Below are positions 39,931 to 50,187 of a stretch of DNA of 54,223 nucleotides, piece after piece (within the stretch, counting starts at the first letter, position 1; the number at the start of each line of letters is the position of its first letter). Where the stretch lies: positions 1 through 54,223 of the forward strand of contig JAJRTR010000026.1 in assembly GCA_024278215.1 (NCBI GenBank), read 5' to 3'. The stretch comes from a bacterium. Lineage in GTDB: Bacteria; UBP15; UBA6099; JAJRTR01. The position numbers and the translations under genes are program-made. The notes under the pieces were generated by a model. It saw nothing but the letters and a program-made list of their open reading frames with translations, did no database searches and was not told the origin of the DNA.

Positions 39931-42900
39931 TCATTCGGAGAGAATGAGAGTGCAGGCGCTGTGGGCGCGCAGGTAATAGCCTTTCCATGACAGCAACTCG
40001 CCGCCGATGGGAACGGGTGAGTATTTACGTCCGTCATACATGTAGATAGCGGGATCGAGTATGCGGCTGTCGGCTGCCTGACCAAGGGTGAGTGTCGCGC
40101 CATCGCATTCGAGTTGGATGTTATCGCTCCATGCTATCGACTTGGCGTATGGATTCCCGATGAGGTTCCAGCCGGCGGCGAGTGGGACGTTTATTGCGAT
40201 GCCGTCCTGCGCGGGAATACCCTCGATATCTATTTCGGTGTTGTCGGACACGTAGACCCAGTAGCCAAAACCGGTTTCTATGTCTGCGTCGGCTGCTGCG
40301 TAGTAGTTCCCGTCGTAGAACTGGTAGACGTTCATAAGGGGAAGATCGTCGCCGAGCTGTTCGAGAGCCGAGGTTACGAGCGGATCGACCGGTACGGAGA
40401 TGAGGTTCCAGCCGGGCTGGAGAGTGTGTGTGACGACGAGCGGGTCGGAGAAAAGGGCGAGCACCTCAATTCTGAAATTATCGGCGGAAACATCGCCGCC
40501 GGCTGGCCGGTAGGTATAGCTGCACTGCGCGGCCATGTTTATGCTGGTGGCGGTGTTGATGTGAACGAGAGTGAAAGAATAGCGCTCGACAGGTATCGAG
40601 CCACAATCCCAGCGCAGAGTGACAGTGCCGGAATCGGCGTTAGTGACGACATTGAAAAGCCATTTTTCGACATTGTATGAATCAGCCGGTGGCCGGATGT
40701 CGTTGGCGTATCTGCCCGCGAGGCGGTGCCAGTCGTCGTGATCGAAATAGAGAGAGATATAGCCTCTGGCGGGTGATTTGTGGGGTTCGGGAAAGTCGAG
40801 GGGATCGAAGTCACGAGCCGCCTCGCTCGACGCGCCGAAGTAGTTGTCCATATCGGCGAAGCCCCCTGCGTAAGCTGAAATCCTTATGTTGTACTCGAAA
40901 GACCTGCGCAGCAGCCGCGACGATATTCGCATCAGTGATGCTGCCGATGGATCGAAAACGAGATCGACATCCTTATATGCCCTGATGCTGTAGCCCGTTT
41001 CAATCTCCATGCTGTCCGAGGCATCGTGCTGTGTCCATGATTTCGCGGTGGTGTCGTACGACGTTATCTTGTCGGCGATGAGGCCAAGGTCCACGGCATC
41101 GGCGAGATTGTATGTGGTGCCGTTGTAGCGAACCTGCACCTGGCCCCACGGGAAATTCTTCATAAAGGGGGTTCCGACCTGATTCCAGCCTTCATATATC
41201 CGCATCGTATATTCTGAAGTCGTATCGGCAACCGATCCGCTGTAGGAATACTTGAGGTCTTCGTTATAAGTCTTTATCCAGAACGCTTCGCCTGCCTTGA
41301 GACTCGAAGGATATTCGTATCTGCCGAGGTACTGGTCATAGTCCGACTTGTTGGGATTCCACCTGTAGACTTTATAAATGTTTTTGGTGCCGAACATGGA
41401 AAGGGGGTCGGAAGGCGACGGATTTATGGGTGTCGACAGCAGGTGCCAGTAGTGGTAATCGAGAGTGCCGCTGACGGTCGGCGTGTTGTCTATGTTGATG
41501 GTGACAGTGGTTTCGGACGAGTTTGAATTTGTGTCGACGGCGCTGAGTTTGAGAGTGTAGAGACCGGAGAGTGCGGAGGAATCCCAGGAATAAATGGTTG
41601 TGTTGTTGATATTGAAAGTGCCCGAGGCGAAGGCGAGCCAGATTGAAGGGTTCGTGCCCGCGCCGTAGGAGAGAGTCCACGAGTCGAGAGAGAAATCGTC
41701 GATGGTGCCGGAGATATTGAAAGAGCCGGCGACAGTTTCGCCGCTAGCCGGGTATGTAATCGAGACGACCGGAACGCCGGTGTCGGTCAGGACGAATTCA
41801 TCCTCTGAAGTTGACCAATCGCCGCGCATGAAAGTCGAGTCGACCGCACGGACATTCCAGTAATAATGGCCGCCGGGAGGATTGATAGTCAGAGAAGTGC
41901 CGGTAACAAGGTTACCGATGCCCGCTGCGAGGTAGGGTGACGCGCCCGTGGCGGGGAAGGTGCCGCAGTAGAGTTCACAACCGCCCTGTGTGGTGCCGAT
42001 GCGTACGTCGTAAGTTATAAGATCGGTGTCGGTAGTTTCGTCGTCGGAGGCGGCTGACCAATCGAGAGTAACGGCAACCTTTCCGGAAGTGACGATATCC
42101 GGTTCGTCTGACAGGACGATAGTGGAAGGCGGATTATTAGTGAAGTTGAGATTATTTATCCATATTGTATTTGGTTCGCCCTCGCCGGTGTTGAGAGGAT
42201 CGCCGCTGTTGGCTTCGATCAAATCCTGATCGCCGTCGTTGTCGACATCGGCAGCGTGAATAGAGAGCGTGAAAGTGTCGCCGAGCAGCTGGCTTGTGTC
42301 GACAAAGGTGCCTGCGCCGTCGTTGAGCCAGACTTTATCCGGCTGCCCCTCGGTGTTGCCTGCGATGAAATCGTAATCGCCGTCGCCTTCGACATCAATC
42401 CGGCACAGTGCGATGGTTTTTCGCGAGCCGAGTTGCTGACCGGTGTCGGAGAAGGAGCCTGCGCCGTCGTTGAGCCAGACAGTATTGGGTTCGTCGTCGT
42501 AATTGCCCGCGATATAGTCGAGGTCTCTGTCGCCGTCGATGTCCATGAGAAGCCCGGAGAGAGTCGGTTCGTTGCCGAGCGACTGTCCCGAATCGGAGAA
42601 AACGCCGTTGCCGTCGTTGAGCCATACGACATCCGGCTGGTCCCTGTTGGACTCGACGAAATCGGCGTCGCCGTCGCCGTCGAGGTCGCCCGCGGAGATG
42701 TGCCATGTAGTACTGTTGCCGAGTTCCTGTGTAACAGTCGCGAATATGCCGTTTCCGTCGTTTATCCAGAGGCGGTCGGGCTCGTTCCTGTTGCCGCAGA
42801 TGAAGTCCATGTCGCCGTCGCCGTCGATGTCTGCGATGTCCATGCCGAAAGTGTAAAAGCTGCCGAGCGACTGCATACTGTCGGTGAAGACGGCGTTGCC

Positions 42901-45099
42901 GTCGTTGAGCCAGATATTATGGTCCTGGACATTGCCCGCGACGAAATCGAGGTCGCCGTCGCCGTCGACATCGAGAGCGAAAGCTATGCGGGTCCATGTT
43001 TTTTCAAAACGTGCGGTGAGCAACTGTCCCGAATCGGAAAAAGAGCCGGAACCGTTGTTGAGCCATATCCTGCTGGGCTCGCCGAAGTACACGCCTTCGA
43101 TAAAGTCGAGGTCGCCGTCGCTGTCGAGGTCGGCCGCCGGAGTTGAATAAGTACCGTAGCTGCCGAGCGACTGACCAGAATCGGTGAATACCGGCATGAC
43201 AACGAAAGAATCCTCTGCGCTCCACGCGCTGCGTTTATAAGTAGGATCGACGGTTCTGGCAGACCAGAAATAAGTGCCTGCCGTCAGGTCGGATTTCCAG
43301 CTATTGGAGAAACCTACTGTGCCGGGTCCGGCGATGAGGCCGGGGCTGTCGCCCTCGGAAGGGAAAAAACCGCAATAGACTTCGCAGCCACCGCTGGACG
43401 TGCCGATGCGAATGTCGTAGGTCATAAGGTCTGTATCCAGTGTTTCCGGGTCTGAGCCGGGGGCCCAGTTTAGAATGGTGCCGGGGCGCTCGAATGTCCA
43501 TACATCCGGTGCGGCAACTGGCGTTGGCGCGGACGGTGCGCTGTTGGCGCTGTCGATATCATTGAAATATATGCGGTTGCCGTCGATACTATTGCCTTCG
43601 ATGAAATCTAGGTCGCCGTCGCCGTCGAGGTCGGCAGCGGATACGGAAACCGTATCTTCCGCGCCGATGAACTCGGCGGTGCCTTCGAAAAAGCCATTTC
43701 CGTCGTTGAGATAAATCCTGTCCGGCGCGCCGCCGCCGTTTCCGACGATGAAATCGTAATCGCCGTCGGCGTCGAGGTCGGCGGCGAAAAGGCTCGTGCT
43801 GTTTGCCGAGCCGAGCCGCTGGCCTGTGTCGGTGAAGTTGCCGTCGCCGTCGTTTACCCATACGTAATTCGGCTCGCTGTCGTAATCGGCTTCCATGAAA
43901 TCCGAGTCACCGTCGGCGTCGATGTCGGCAGCGAATACAAAAAGAGTGGAATTCGTACCGAGGCTCTGTCCCGAATCGGAGAAAGTCCCGCGACCGTTGT
44001 TGAGCCATACGCGGTTACCCTGAAGCCTGTTGCCCGCGATAAAATCGGGGTCGCCGTCGAGATCGACATCGACGGAGTGAATGGAATAAGTCGTGTATGA
44101 GCCGAGTTCCTGGCCGCTGTCGGAGAAATTGCCGTCGCCGTCGTTGATCCAGACTTTGTTCGCGCCGCCATTGTTCGCTGTATCTTTGTTCGCGTCGATG
44201 AAGTCGATATCGCCGTCGACATCCACATCGACGGCGTCGATGCTGAAGGTTGTCAGGTCGCCGAGGCGCTGTCCCGAATCGGTGAAGCCGAGAGTTCCGC
44301 TGTTGAGGCTCCTGCGTTCGGCGGACGGTGCAGATATAAAGTTGTTGATCCATACATAGTTCGAAGAAATGTTTCCGGCGATGATGTCCATGTCGCCGTC
44401 TCCGTCGACATCGGCGGCGTAAGAAGACCGTGTGCTTTCGCTTCCGAGCGATTGCGACAGGGCAAAAGAGCCGGTGCCGTCATTGGTCCATATAGTGTTT
44501 GCCTGGCTATTGTAATTGCTTGCGATAAAATCGTAGTCGCCGTCAGCGTCGAGGTCCGCCACGTGGATGTCGATAGTCTCCATATCGCTCAATGACAAAC
44601 CGGCGTCGGAATAGTTATAGACGGGTTTAACATCGAAGCTGTCCTCAGCGCTCCACGCGCTGCGTCTGAAAGTCGCGTCCACTGTGCGCACCGACCAGTA
44701 ATAAGAGCCTTCAGGCAAGTCGATAATATGAGAAATCCCGCTTCCGGAATTGCCGGGTCCTGTTCCGGACCAGTAGACAGCGCCGGTCGCGGTGAAGCTG
44801 CCGCAGAATATTTCGCAACCCTCGCTTGTCGTGCCTATGCGTATGTCATAAGTCAGCAGGTCGGAATCGGTGGTTTCCGCGTCGCTACCGGCAGACCATG
44901 TGAGCACGGCGTTGGGCCTGTCGAGAGTCCACAGTTCGTGAACGGCGGTGAGCAGTGGCGCCGCCGGTACCGTGTTCGTGTTCGACAGGTTGTAAATCCA
45001 GACACTGTCGGCAGCGCCGTAGTTGCCCTGTATAAAATCGACATCGTTGTCGTTATCCAGATCGGCGGCCGCAATAGTCGTAGTATCGGAATCGCCCAT
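39931..45099 (-). CDS. C-terminal part of the giant FG-GAP propeller protein (after the in-frame stop)
   Basis: This frame (1722 residues from the ATG at 45099) is in the same phase as the ORF ending at 46021. Codons 46020-45100 stay open and encode blades 1 to 6 of module 4, so the ATG is only the first Met after the stop and has no ribosome site. It encodes the last blade of module 4 and the following Fn3-like domain, all of modules 5 and 6, then about 620 C-terminal residues: an Ig-like region (PVVSITYPASGETVAGSFNI), two WNQVGTP/WHLLSTP-type repeats, a strand-rich middle, and two more repeats (GWNLISVPVDP, GWNLIGNPYAK). No anchor or sorting signal is recognised. Confidence 0.7.
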   Translation of the reverse strand: MGDSDTTTIAAADLDNDNDVDFIQGNYGAADSVWIYNLSNTNTVPAAPLLTAVHELWTLDRPNAVLTWSAGSDAETTDSDLLTYDIRIGTTSEGCEIFCGSFTATGAVYWSGTGPGNSGSGISHIIDLPEGSYYWSVRTVDATFRRSAWSAEDSFDVKPVYNYSDAGLSLSDMETIDIHVADLDADGDYDFIASNYNSQANTIWTNDGTGSFALSQSLGSESTRSSYAADVDGDGDMDIIAGNISSNYVWINNFISAPSAERRSLNSGTLGFTDSGQRLGDLTTFSIDAVDVDVDGDIDFIDANKDTANNGGANKVWINDGDGNFSDSGQELGSYTTYSIHSVDVDLDGDPDFIAGNRLQGNRVWLNNGRGTFSDSGQSLGTNSTLFVFAADIDADGDSDFMEADYDSEPNYVWVNDGDGNFTDTGQRLGSANSTSLFAADLDADGDYDFIVGNGGGAPDRIYLNDGNGFFEGTAEFIGAEDTVSVSAADLDGDGDLDFIEGNSIDGNRIYFNDIDSANSAPSAPTPVAAPDVWTFERPGTILNWAPGSDPETLDTDLMTYDIRIGTSSGGCEVYCGFFPSEGDSPGLIAGPGTVGFSNSWKSDLTAGTYFWSARTVDPTYKRSAWSAEDSFVVMPVFTDSGQSLGSYGTYSTPAADLDSDGDLDFIEGVYFGEPSRIWLNNGSGSFSDSGQLLTARFEKTWTRIAFALDVDGDGDLDFVAGNVQDHNIWLNDGNAVFTDSMQSLGSFYTFGMDIADIDGDGDMDFICGNRNEPDRLWINDGNGIFATVTQELGNSTTWHISAGDLDGDGDADFVESNRDQPDVVWLNDGNGVFSDSGQSLGNEPTLSGLLMDIDGDRDLDYIAGNYDDEPNTVWLNDGAGSFSDTGQQLGSRKTIALCRIDVEGDGDYDFIAGNTEGQPDKVWLNDGAGTFVDTSQLLGDTFTLSIHAADVDNDGDQDLIEANSGDPLNTGEGEPNTIWINNLNFTNNPPSTIVLSDEPDIVTSGKVAVTLDWSAASDDETTDTDLITYDVRIGTTQGGCELYCGTFPATGASPYLAAGIGNLVTGTSLTINPPGGHYYWNVRAVDSTFMRGDWSTSEDEFVLTDTGVPVVSITYPASGETVAGSFNISGTIDDFSLDSWTLSYGAGTNPSIWLAFASGTFNINNTTIYSWDSSALSGLYTLKLSAVDTNSNSSETTVTINIDNTPTVSGTLDYHYWHLLSTPINPSPSDPLSMFGTKNIYKVYRWNPNKSDYDQYLGRYEYPSSLKAGEAFWIKTYNEDLKYSYSGSVADTTSEYTMRIYEGWNQVGTPFMKNFPWGQVQVRYNGTTYNLADAVDLGLIADKITSYDTTAKSWTQHDASDSMEIETGYSIRAYKDVDLVFDPSAASLMRISSRLLRRSFEYNIRISAYAGGFADMDNYFGASSEAARDFDPLDFPEPHKSPARGYISLYFDHDDWHRLAGRYANDIRPPADSYNVEKWLFNVVTNADSGTVTLRWDCGSIPVERYSFTLVHINTATSINMAAQCSYTYRPAGGDVSADNFRIEVLALFSDPLVVTHTLQPGWNLISVPVDPLVTSALEQLGDDLPLMNVYQFYDGNYYAAADADIETGFGYWVYVSDNTEIDIEGIPAQDGIAINVPLAAGWNLIGNPYAKSIAWSDNIQLECDGATLTLGQAADSRILDPAIYMYDGRKYSPVPIGGELLSWKGYYLRAHSACTLILSE

Positions 45100-48000
45100 C
45101 GTCAGTCCTGAATCAGTGAATACGCCCGCGCCGTCATTTTTCCAGTACTTATCCGCGCCGCCGCCGTTGTTGCCTTCGATAAAGTCATAGTCGCCATCGC
45201 CGTCCGCGTCGAACGCAAAGACGGAATAGGTCTTATCCGACCCGAGCGACTGCCCTGAATCCGAAAAAGAGCCCGCGCCGTCGTTTGTCCATATCGCGGT
45301 CGCCTGGTTGTAGTTGCCTTCGATGAAATCAGCATCGCCGTCGCCGTCAACATCGACGGCATAGATATCGAAAGTCGTATTCGAGCCGAGGCTCTCGCCG
45401 CTGTCTGTGAAAACACCGTCGCTGTCGTTGAGCAGGATTGCGACAGGTTCGTCCCTGTTGCCCTCGATCAGGTCGGTGTCGCCGTCGCCGTCAACATCCG
45501 TGAGGTCGATCGAGTATGTCGTGCCGCTTCCGACATCCCGGCCCGAATCGGTGAATGTTGCGCTTCCGTCATTAAGCCACAGGGTGCCGGCGCCGTCCCT
45601 GTTGCTGTCGAGAAGGTCGATGTCGCCGTCGGCGTCGAGGTCCGCGGCCTTTATCGAGTATGTCGTATTGTTGCCGAGGGATTGTCCTGAATCAGTGAAT
45701 GAACCGGAATTGTCGTTCAGCCATATAATGTTGCCGCCGACAGCGCCGGAAACGAGGTCGATGTCGCCGTCGCTGTCAAGGTCGGCAGCGACGACGGAGC
45801 GCGTCTGCGACGAACCGAGAGACTGCGAGAGGGCGAAAGCGCCGCTGCCGTCGTTTATCCAGACGTCGTCTGCCCCGGATGAGTAGTTTCCTTCGAAGAA
45901 ATCAATGTCGCCGTCGCTGTCAAGATCGGCAGTGACGATGGAAAGCGTATCGCCGGAACCGAGCAGCGCGCCGGAGTCTGAAAAATCGGTTTTAATCGTG
46001 AAATCGTCTACAGCGCTCCACTAGCTTCGTGTATAAGTTGCATCTACAGTGCGGACAGACCAGTAATAGGTGTCTGCGCCGAGCGTAACTGTGTAGGAGG
46101 TCGTCGCGCCGGTGACGCCTGGTGCTGAAGCAGCGAAGGGCGATTCACCGTATGAAGGGAAATATCCGCAGAATACTTCGCAGCCGCCGCTTGTCGTGCC
46201 AAGCCGGATGTCATAAGCCAGAAGGTCGGTGTCTGTAGTTTCCGCATCCGAACCGACCGACCATTCGAGCGTGACACCTGTGTAGGACGAGCCGGAGACT
46301 ACTATGTCGGGTTCGTCAATGGCGGCAGGCGCGACGGGTGCCGTGAGCGCCGGGTTTATGTTGTTGATCCATATCCTGTTGCCTTCTCCGTTGTTGTTCC
46401 CTTCGATGATGTCGAGGTCGTAGTCGCCGTCGATGTCCGCGGCAAATACGGAATAAGTCTGGTATGAACCGATGACGAGCCCGTAATCGGTGAAAGTTCC
46501 GGTGCCGTTATTCAGCCAGATCGAGTCGGATTGGCCTTCGCCGTTGCCGGAAATGAAATCGATGTCGCCGTCGCCGTCGATGTCGCCGCCGTAAACGGAG
46601 AAAGTTTTATTCGAGGCGAGCGTCTGTCCCGAGTCGGAGAAGTTGCCCATGCCGTCGTTGAGCCATATTCGGTTTGCCTGGTTGTAGTTGCCCTCGACGA
46701 AGTCCGGTGCCCCGTCGCCGTTGGCATCGAAAGCGAAAATCGAGAAGGTCGAATTCGAGGCGAGCGACTGCCCCGAATCGGAGAAGCTGCCCGCGCCGTC
46801 GTTGAGCCACACGATATCGGCGGCGTCGCGCACACCCTCGATCATGTCCGGGTCGCCGTCGCCGTCGATGTCTGCGAGTGATACGGAATAAGTTTTCGCG
46901 GTGCCGAGGCTCTGTCCGCTGTCGAAAAATGAGCCGTCGCCGTCATTTAGCCAAGCTGTTATCGCATCATCCTTGTTTCCGTTAATGATGTCGATGTCGC
47001 CGTCGCTGTCTATATCGACCGCCTTGATCGAGAATGTTACGTGTGAGTTGGAGCCGATCTGTTCACCTGTATCCGTGAATGATGCGCTGCCGTCATTTGC
47101 CCAGATGTTATTGTAGCCGACGATGCCGACGATTATGTCGAGATCGCCGTCCATGTCCGTGTCGGCAACGGTGACGGAGCGCGAATCGCTGCTTCCGAAA
47201 TTCTGCGTCGAAGCGAAAGTGCCCGTTCCGTCGTTGAGCCATACTGTATCCTGCTGCCCGGAACTGTTCGCATCAACAAGATCGAAATCGCCGTCACCGT
47301 CGAAGTCCGCGGAATACGCTTCCGCCGTGTTTTCCGAACCGAACGACTGTCCCGAATCGGTGAAATCCGCGGAGACAGTGAATGAATCTTCGGCGCTCCA
47401 CGCGCTTCTCATAAAACCCGGGTCGACAGTTCTGACCGACCAGTAATATGTGCCTGACCACAGTTCGATATCATGGGAAGTCGTCGAGCCCGTGTTGCCC
47501 GGTCCCGACGCACCCCACGGCACAGTTCCCGAGTATGGGAAGGTTCCGCAATAAACCTCGCAGCCTTCGCTTGTCGTACCGATGCGTATGTCATAAGAAA
47601 GGAGATCGGCGTCAGTAGTTTCAATGTCGGAACCGGCAGACCATTCGAGGTCGATGATGTAGAAAGAAGCGCCGGGGATATCGAAGTCGGGCTCGGCTGT
47701 GAGCAGAGGAGCGGTGGGTGCCGTATTCGTGTAATTGAGATTGTTTTGCCATATTCTGTTCGCCTCTCCCGAGTTGGCTTCGACGAGGTCGAGGTCGTCG
47801 TCGGAGTCAAGGGAGACAGCGATGAGCATGTTGGTCGAATAAGAGCCGAGCGCGTAGCCGGGGTCGGAAAAAACGCCCGCGCCGTCGTTCTCCCATATAA
47901 CATCTGACTGGCCTTCGCCATTGCCGGCGAAGAAATCGTAATCGCCGTCGCCGTCGTAGTCGGCCGGAAAAACAGAAAAAGTTTTTTGCGAGCCTAACGA

Positions 48001-50121
48001 CTGCCCGGAATCGGTAAAAACGCCAGCACCGTCGTTGAGCCACACGGCGTTTCCTTCGTTGTAGTTGCCCTCGATGAAGTCGTCGTTGCCGTCGCCGTCG
48101 ACATCCACTGCGAAAACGGTAAAAGTTGTGTTCGATCCGAGCGACTGACCCGAGTCGGAGAAGTTGCCGTCACCATCGTTGCTCCAGACAATATTCGCCG
48201 CTCCGCGCACGCCCTCGATCATGTCCGGGTCGCCGTCGTCGTCTACGTCCGCAAGGCTGATGGAATATGTTTTTGCTGTTCCGAGACTCTGACCGCTGTC
48301 CGAAAATGAACCCGCGCCGTCATTGAGCCAGACCACCATCGCGTCGTCTTTATTGCCGTTGACGATGTCGAAGTCACCATCGCTGTCCACATCCACCGCT
48401 CTGATAGCAAACGTAACATGTCCGTTGGAGCCGATCTGCGCCCCCGTATCCGTGAATGACGCGCCGCCGTCGTTCGACCAGATTTTATTGTAGCCTACGA
48501 TCCCTACGACTATGTCCAGGTCGCCGTCCATATCGGTGTCGGCCACGTCGACTGAACGCGAGTCCTCACTTCCGAAATCCTGCGCCGAAGTGAAAGTACC
48601 AGCGCCGTCGTTCAGCCATACAGTATCCTGTTGTCCCGAACTGTTCACTTCGACAATATCGAAGTCGCCATCCGCGTCGAGATCTGCGGAATATACCGCC
48701 GCCGTATTCCCGGAACCCAGTGTTTGTCCCGTATCCGAGAACCCTTTCACAACATTGAATGAATCCTCGGTACTCCAGGCACTTCGTTTATAAGTCGGGT
48801 CGGTCGTGCGCACAGACCAGTAATAAGTACCTTCCGAAAGTGAAATTACTTGAGAGACGCGGCTCCCGGAATTGCCGGGTCCGTTGCCGGAAGGAGACGT
48901 GCCGGAGGAAGGAAAACTACCGCAGAAGACATCGCAGGCACCGCTGGATGTGCCGATGCGGATGTCATAAGTCAGAAGGTCGGCATTTGATGTTTCAGCA
49001 TCCGAGGCGGTGGTCCACTCGAGTGTGACGGCTATTGTCGAACCAGGCAGGATAACGTCCGGTTCCGCGGTTAGAGAAGGCGCGGTCGGATTAGTATTCG
49101 GGTGATTCGTGTCGTTCATCCAGATAATATTCGACTGGCCTTCGGTATTTGCGGCTATTATGTCCAGGTCACCGCTGTTGTCGACGTCGGCAACTGCGAT
49201 TCCGAGTGTCTTTTTATTGCCGAGTGTCAATGTCGAATCCGTGAATGAGCCCGTACCGTCGTTCAGCCAGATAATGTTTGCAGCGTTGTAAACGCCCTCG
49301 ATAAAATCGCAGTCACCGTCGCCGTCCATGTCCGCAGCGGAAGATGAATATGTTTTCGCGGTGCCGAGCGATTGGCCTGTGTCTGTGAAAGTGCCTGTGC
49401 CGTCGTTTGTCCATATTCTATTGCCTTCGTTGTAGTTCCCCTCGATGAAATCAACGCTGCCGTCACCGTCCACATCGCAGGTGGCCATCGTGAAAAGTGT
49501 ACTCGTGCCGAGCGACTGTCCGCTGTCGGTGAAAGTCGCGGCACCGTCATTTATCCATATAATATTTCCCGCGCCTCTGATGCCTTCGATGATGTCTATA
49601 TCGCCGTCGCCGTCCACGTCCGCGTTTTTTACACTGTAGGTATTCGCCGCTGGCATCGTGTTCCCCGAGTCGGACATCGCGCCGGTTCCGTCGTTGAGCC
49701 ACACTTTGTTCGTGTCGTTTCTGTTGCCCTCGACAAGGTCTATATCACCGTCTCCGTCAAAGTCGGAAAGCGACAAGGAATATGAAAGATATGAGGCCGA
49801 ACCGATGCTCTGGCCCGAGTCGGTGAAAGACGCCGTGCCGTCATTTGTCCATATCCGGTTGTAGCCCTCGTCGCCGAAAACAAGATCGATGTCGCCGTCG
49901 TTGTCCAGGTCGGCTGCCGCGATTGATCTCGTTTTTTCCGCGCCCATGGACTGCGTGATGCTGAAACTACCTGCGCCGTCATTCAGCCACGCATTGTTCG
50001 CCTGTCCGCCGCCGAGATTTCCGTCGATAAAGTCAATATCGCCGTCGCCGTCGAGATCGACCGCGAACGCCGCGACACTGTCGTCCGTTCCGAGCGCCTG
50101 CCCGGAATCGCTGAATGAGAA
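41790..50121 (-). repeat. Six-fold coding super-repeat of ~1.36-1.43 kb
   Basis: Approximate module limits (high to low coordinates) are 50121-48745, 48745-47370, 47370-45985, 45985-44625, 44625-43195 and 43195-41790. Each encodes seven FG-GAP/VCBS blades of about 46 to 50 residues with DxDGDGDxDFIEGN-type calcium loops, then one Fn3-like domain with a conserved Cys pair (GGCEVFCG) ending YYWSVRTVD...RSAWS.EDSF. Forty-two blades could be counted. Modules 2 and 3 are the most alike. Confidence 0.85.
46021..46023 (-). other. In-frame TAG interrupting the propeller gene
   Basis: The codons read CGA AGC TAG TGG AGC GCT, where sister modules read AGC GCG TGG AGC (Arg-Ser-Ala-Trp-Ser) or AGT GCC TGG. 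The stop thus replaces one conserved Ala codon by an adjacent two-base change (GC to TA), with no frameshift. The next base after TAG is T, not a known strong readthrough context. Confidence 0.9.
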
Positions 50122-50187
50122 TGCCGCCGCAGCCGGTTTCGACGCCGCTATCATAAATAGGATTACTATTACCGATAACCTTTTCAT
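46021..50187 (-). CDS. N-terminal part of giant secreted FG-GAP/VCBS beta-propeller protein
   Basis: These 1388 residues start with a signal peptide (MKRLSVIVILFMIAASKPAAAA), cleaved before FSFSDSGQ. I start at ATG 50187, because ATG 50217 would place polar residues before the signal. Three complete seven-blade modules follow, the first two each closed by its Fn3-like domain. Blades have the pattern FTDSGQSLGs.kTySv.AaDvDGDGDiDfIEGN.n..N.iWlNDGtG. Each Asp-rich loop resembles integrin-alpha/VCBS calcium sites, so the protein should be extracellular and Ca2+-dependent. The third Fn3-like domain is cut by TAG after RTVDATYTRS. It is the third gene of an operon with the FecR-domain and barrel genes. 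An adhesin or glycan-binding role is inference. Confidence 0.85.
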   Translation of the reverse strand: MKRLSVIVILFMIAASKPAAAAFSFSDSGQALGTDDSVAAFAVDLDGDGDIDFIDGNLGGGQANNAWLNDGAGSFSITQSMGAEKTRSIAAADLDNDGDIDLVFGDEGYNRIWTNDGTASFTDSGQSIGSASYLSYSLSLSDFDGDGDIDLVEGNRNDTNKVWLNDGTGAMSDSGNTMPAANTYSVKNADVDGDGDIDIIEGIRGAGNIIWINDGAATFTDSGQSLGTSTLFTMATCDVDGDGSVDFIEGNYNEGNRIWTNDGTGTFTDTGQSLGTAKTYSSSAADMDGDGDCDFIEGVYNAANIIWLNDGTGSFTDSTLTLGNKKTLGIAVADVDNSGDLDIIAANTEGQSNIIWMNDTNHPNTNPTAPSLTAEPDVILPGSTIAVTLEWTTASDAETSNADLLTYDIRIGTSSGACDVFCGSFPSSGTSPSGNGPGNSGSRVSQVISLSEGTYYWSVRTTDPTYKRSAWSTEDSFNVVKGFSDTGQTLGSGNTAAVYSADLDADGDFDIVEVNSSGQQDTVWLNDGAGTFTSAQDFGSEDSRSVDVADTDMDGDLDIVVGIVGYNKIWSNDGGASFTDTGAQIGSNGHVTFAIRAVDVDSDGDFDIVNGNKDDAMVVWLNDGAGSFSDSGQSLGTAKTYSISLADVDDDGDPDMIEGVRGAANIVWSNDGDGNFSDSGQSLGSNTTFTVFAVDVDGDGNDDFIEGNYNEGNAVWLNDGAGVFTDSGQSLGSQKTFSVFPADYDGDGDYDFFAGNGEGQSDVIWENDGAGVFSDPGYALGSYSTNMLIAVSLDSDDDLDLVEANSGEANRIWQNNLNYTNTAPTAPLLTAEPDFDIPGASFYIIDLEWSAGSDIETTDADLLSYDIRIGTTSEGCEVYCGTFPYSGTVPWGASGPGNTGSTTSHDIELWSGTYYWSVRTVDPGFMRSAWSAEDSFTVSADFTDSGQSFGSENTAEAYSADFDGDGDFDLVDANSSGQQDTVWLNDGTGTFASTQNFGSSDSRSVTVADTDMDGDLDIIVGIVGYNNIWANDGSASFTDTGEQIGSNSHVTFSIKAVDIDSDGDIDIINGNKDDAITAWLNDGDGSFFDSGQSLGTAKTYSVSLADIDGDGDPDMIEGVRDAADIVWLNDGAGSFSDSGQSLASNSTFSIFAFDANGDGAPDFVEGNYNQANRIWLNDGMGNFSDSGQTLASNKTFSVYGGDIDGDGDIDFISGNGEGQSDSIWLNNGTGTFTDYGLVIGSYQTYSVFAADIDGDYDLDIIEGNNNGEGNRIWINNINPALTAPVAPAAIDEPDIVVSGSSYTGVTLEWSVGSDAETTDTDLLAYDIRLGTTSGGCEVFCGYFPSYGESPFAASAPGVTGATTSYTVTLGADTYYWSVRTVDATYTRS

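Follow-up and report, generated by a model that had tools for sequence, protein, structure and literature searches.

A lone in-frame TAG in a giant FG-GAP propeller gene of an uncultured bacterium, probably a recent nonsense mutation

Giant propeller gene and its internal stop

The window, that is the whole stretch of DNA analysed (54,223 nucleotides), is contig C201 of a draft MAG (G000; 4.55 Mb, 207 contigs, 95% complete). Re-translation of the minus-strand frame running from 50187 to 39931 gave exactly one internal stop, a TAG at 46023-46021, before the natural TGA, about two-fifths along the gene. This bears out the original prediction of a single stop with more than 2000 codons of translation beyond it: 2029 codons stay open, and no cluster of stops was found, the TAG standing alone within 3419 codons. 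The features of the locus are as follows.

39931..50187, minus strand: giant FG-GAP propeller gene of 3419 codons, counting its one internal stop (TAG) and the final TGA (translation)
46024..50187, minus strand: part before the stop, 1388 codons, with a signal-peptide-like N terminus and three propeller modules
46021..46023, minus strand: lone in-frame TAG in module 3, where the RSAWS junction has its Ala
39931..46020, minus strand: part after the stop, 2029 codons, open and coding-like
39934..41784, minus strand: C-terminal module, 617 aa, absent from the truncated product

The gene is built of six repeated modules, each consisting of FG-GAP repeats and, after them, an Fn3-like domain that ends in a motif like YWSVRTVD...RSAWSAED. 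In profile searches, FG-GAP_3 (PF13517) scored 316 bits upstream of the TAG; over the last 889 aa its score was 46 bits. The repeats exceed the curated cut-off for this family. The N terminus, judged by eye, is signal-peptide-like (MKRLSVIVILFMIAASKPAAAA). Read from its sequence, the gene product is a predicted secreted FG-GAP propeller protein of an uncultured bacterium. It shares tandem FG-GAP repeats, a signal peptide and giant size with known secreted proteins of FG-GAP_3 repeats, and differs from them in that the present copy is stop-interrupted and has at its C terminus a module typical of the order. Other giant frames, of 5232 (incomplete), 3842 and 3583 codons, lie on contigs C198, C151 and C34 of the same MAG (L125, L078 and L128, respectively); these are uninterrupted and have a similar C-terminal region at their end.

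Codon at the TAG site

The junction codons of modules 1 to 6 are GCC, GCG, [TAG], GCG, GCG and GAT, with TGG next in every module. The flanks of the TAG agree with the sister modules (AGC xxx TGG AGC), as originally described, and the homologous gene of a relative in the same order (G002:C386, L121) reads CGT TCC GCG TGG TCC at this point. A sense codon thus stands at the site in both the sister modules and the order relative, as in nonsense-mutated pseudogenes. The conserved Ala of the original prediction applies to four of the five sister modules (GCC or GCG), the last having Asp (GAT). Its two-base substitution is correct in so far as two changes are needed from GCG; the TAG may also have arisen in one step, for example from TCG or GAG as an intermediate codon. 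According to the module alignment, the TAG cuts the third Fn3-like domain just ahead of its last strand. The base after the TAG (+4) is T; in E. coli reporters, termination is more efficient when T follows the stop (PMC11126739).

If the TAG were an error of sequencing or of the consensus, or if the MAG mixed several strain variants, the true gene would have a sense codon here. Such an origin would suit the draft state of the assembly with its 207 contigs, the undamaged remainder of the frame and the two adjacent substitutions that GCG to TAG requires. Speaking against it, no exact repeat inside the giant gene is longer than ~26 bp, and the 105-bp surroundings of the TAG have no 15-mer in common with the rest of the window or with the other stretches of the MAG compared, so that repeat collapse is unlikely; repeat-driven misassembly was set aside because no repeat is long enough. 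What is left of the proposed error is a point error or a minority variant. In addition, the clear lone stops of this MAG (see below) all lie in accessory genes and none in core housekeeping genes, as judged by eye; this favours, although weakly, mutation under weak selection over random error. Overall, an error or mixture is considered unlikely.

Region downstream of the TAG

Seven genomes of the order were searched for the C-terminal module (~617 aa), and each has it in giant proteins; six were aligned. More distant matches lie in Armatimonadota and other phyla. Among the nearest matches to the module is a UBP15 record (UBA6099), and the window may belong in or near UBP15. In its sequence the module resembles a sorting or anchoring region, and choice_anch_K gave matches to it below its cut-off only. 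It has two 'GWNLI..P' halves and ends many unrelated giant proteins of the order. Since this conserved, order-wide module lies past the TAG, it is absent from the truncated product, as would be the case in a pseudogene.

That the truncated protein is itself adaptive, a shorter secreted propeller with the tail as a relic, would be in keeping with an upstream part that retains its signal peptide and nearly complete modules. This is extremely improbable, given that giant proteins across the order retain the C-terminal module and that the TAG interrupts the third Fn3-like domain ahead of its last strand. Internal restart was rejected as well: there is no ATG or GTG in the first 308 codons after the TAG, the restarted product would be without signal peptide, and the AGGA ahead of the first downstream start codon sits inside a conserved FG-GAP coding motif. 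The likely outcome is a truncated propeller protein, or none.

For the age of the stop, an indel-to-substitution ratio of 0.1 was assumed, under which the downstream 6.1 kb would acquire ~1.6 new stops and 4.9 frameshifts (~6.5 disabling changes) per 1% neutral divergence. No further stop or frameshift was seen in the 2029 downstream codons, so the stop would be younger than ~0.5% divergence, if the tail is untranslated. This estimate agrees with the view of in-frame stops in bacterial genes as common and short-lived (PMC7918605). Judged from the sequence, a tail still translated at some level would also fit its intact state.

Decoding of UAG

Functional readthrough or suppression, in which an amino acid is inserted at the UAG usefully often, would give one gene two sizes of surface protein, a short and a long form. 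The undamaged downstream frame, with its resemblance to sister modules, and the presence of TAG at 7 of 13 lone stops in the MAG (see below) would be expected of it. The TAG-suppressing tRNA that the original prediction suggested seeking elsewhere in the genome was not found: none of the 46 typed tRNAs of the MAG (95% complete) has a CUA anticodon, in a set that is not fully complete, tRNA-Asn being missing among the 46 matches. PylS and PylD models gave only weak matches in the MAG, far below the family cut-offs, and similarly weak matches in most control genomes. RF1 is present above its cut-off. Of 804 long frames whose end is known, 142 terminate naturally at TAG. Pyrrolysine decoding was accordingly rejected for want of a CUA tRNA and of PylS or PylD above cut-off, and UAG codon reassignment because RF1 is present and TAG is an ordinary terminator. 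The locus has an in-frame UAG in common with pyrrolysine recoding and differs from it in all of these respects.

Programmed UAG readthrough goes with a conserved stop in a permissive context, whereas the order relative has GCG, not TAG, and the T at +4 is a termination-favouring context. Lone TAA and TGA stops were found too, and the share of TAG among lone stops matches random mutation (41-49% expected). With this, functional readthrough or suppression is very unlikely. A variant in which the lineage tolerates leaky UAG/UAA termination in accessory or surface genes, such that a mostly short and sometimes long propeller would be made with no dedicated suppressor tRNA, is highly improbable.

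Lone stops elsewhere in the MAG

Stops with same-frame coding potential on both sides were collected by a scan of 1.94 Mb of the MAG (43% of the genome), and lone-stop candidates were checked by reading and with Pfam. Stops soon followed by a start codon escape the scan, and the resulting rate is a minimum. The scan gave ~12 further single in-frame stops, genuine or probable (6 TAG, 5 TAA and 1 TGA), in the following genes, which are of ordinary kinds.

C206: lone TAG, V4R/MsvR-like protein
C206: lone TAG, sensor histidine kinase
C91: lone TAG, acyltransferase-hydrolase
C200: lone TAG, type II secretion F protein
C176: lone TAG, lipase
C56: lone TAG, CNNM/CorC protein
C43: lone TAA, amidohydrolase
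C31: lone TAA, AMP-ligase
C67: lone TAA, short-chain dehydrogenase
C187: lone TAA (probable), metallophosphatase-like protein
C112: lone TAA (probable), PRC/coiled-coil giant
C29: lone TGA, phage capsid protein
Lone-stop sites 1-6: L098:2625; L099:10081; L150:8238; L157:3298; L148:19026; L161:1327
Lone-stop sites 7-12: L080:16413; L151:3363; L194:13541; L152:19438; L061:7970; L165:11145

Several of the stops split a single Pfam domain, the domain model picking up directly past the stop (CNNM 74/82, adh_short_C2 179/187, Phage_capsid 185/187 and Amidohydro_2 149/163). Where the V4R/MsvR-like gene has its TAG, the codon in two relatives is TCG (Ser). SelA was not found in the MAG, which makes selenocysteine unlikely at the phage capsid TGA.

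Including the TAG of the window, the lone stops number 7 TAG, 5 TAA and 1 TGA (n=13). Random nonsense substitutions on the codon usage of the MAG would be expected to give 41-49% TAG, 26-39% TAA and 20-25% TGA; the mix observed is near these shares and so fits random nonsense mutation, and an excess of TAG was discarded, the count being within expectation. Among natural gene ends in the MAG only ~18% are TAG, which argues that the lone stops are not merely missed gene ends. At a rate of at least ~6 per Mb, ~0.3 lone stops would be expected by chance in a 54-kb window, so that one in this window is unremarkable. As a control, 400 kb of a relative (G001) were read by eye and had no clear nonsense-type lone stop, with ~2 expected at the rate of the present MAG, a difference that is not significant. 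The other lone stops may mean that the MAG of the window is heavily loaded with recent nonsense mutations or with errors in the consensus. In the relative, TGA stands in a peroxiredoxin frame (L214:13498) in place of the usual Cys of TFVCPTE, and G001 probably has a selenocysteine peroxiredoxin, set against the MAG of the window with no SelA found.

Interpretation

The case is mainly a caution: seen from one window alone, a long intact frame with a single stop is striking, but the same genome has many such stops, and they follow mutational expectation. That ~12 genes of this MAG are cut likewise, by all three stops, points to recent ordinary mutation and not to special decoding. The TAG is therefore probably a recent nonsense mutation, fixed or segregating, that breaks a secreted FG-GAP propeller gene. 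Of the options originally listed, recent pseudogenisation (or strain polymorphism) is supported, and dedicated suppression was looked for without success.

Under a recent nonsense mutation, the TAG would have entered the giant propeller gene and be either fixed or segregating in the sampled population. RF1 would terminate at it, giving a protein of ~1388 aa at most that would keep the signal peptide and three propeller modules and lose the remaining modules together with the shared C-terminal module. The 6 kb beyond the TAG would be intact because the mutation is young or is a strain variant. We infer both the loss of function of the propeller gene and the age of the TAG.

A gene-breaking mutation of this sort is already known in kind. 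The single nonsense-mutation pseudogenes and short-lived stops of Belinky et al. 2021 (PMC7918605) show the same single stop with an intact flanking frame and likewise no close relative with the same stop; except for gene size, nothing notable sets the present case apart from them.

G:C to T:A changes are enough to produce both the TAG of the window and that at L098:2625 (from GCG or TCG; n=2). Changes of G:C to T:A are a pattern met with oxidative damage.
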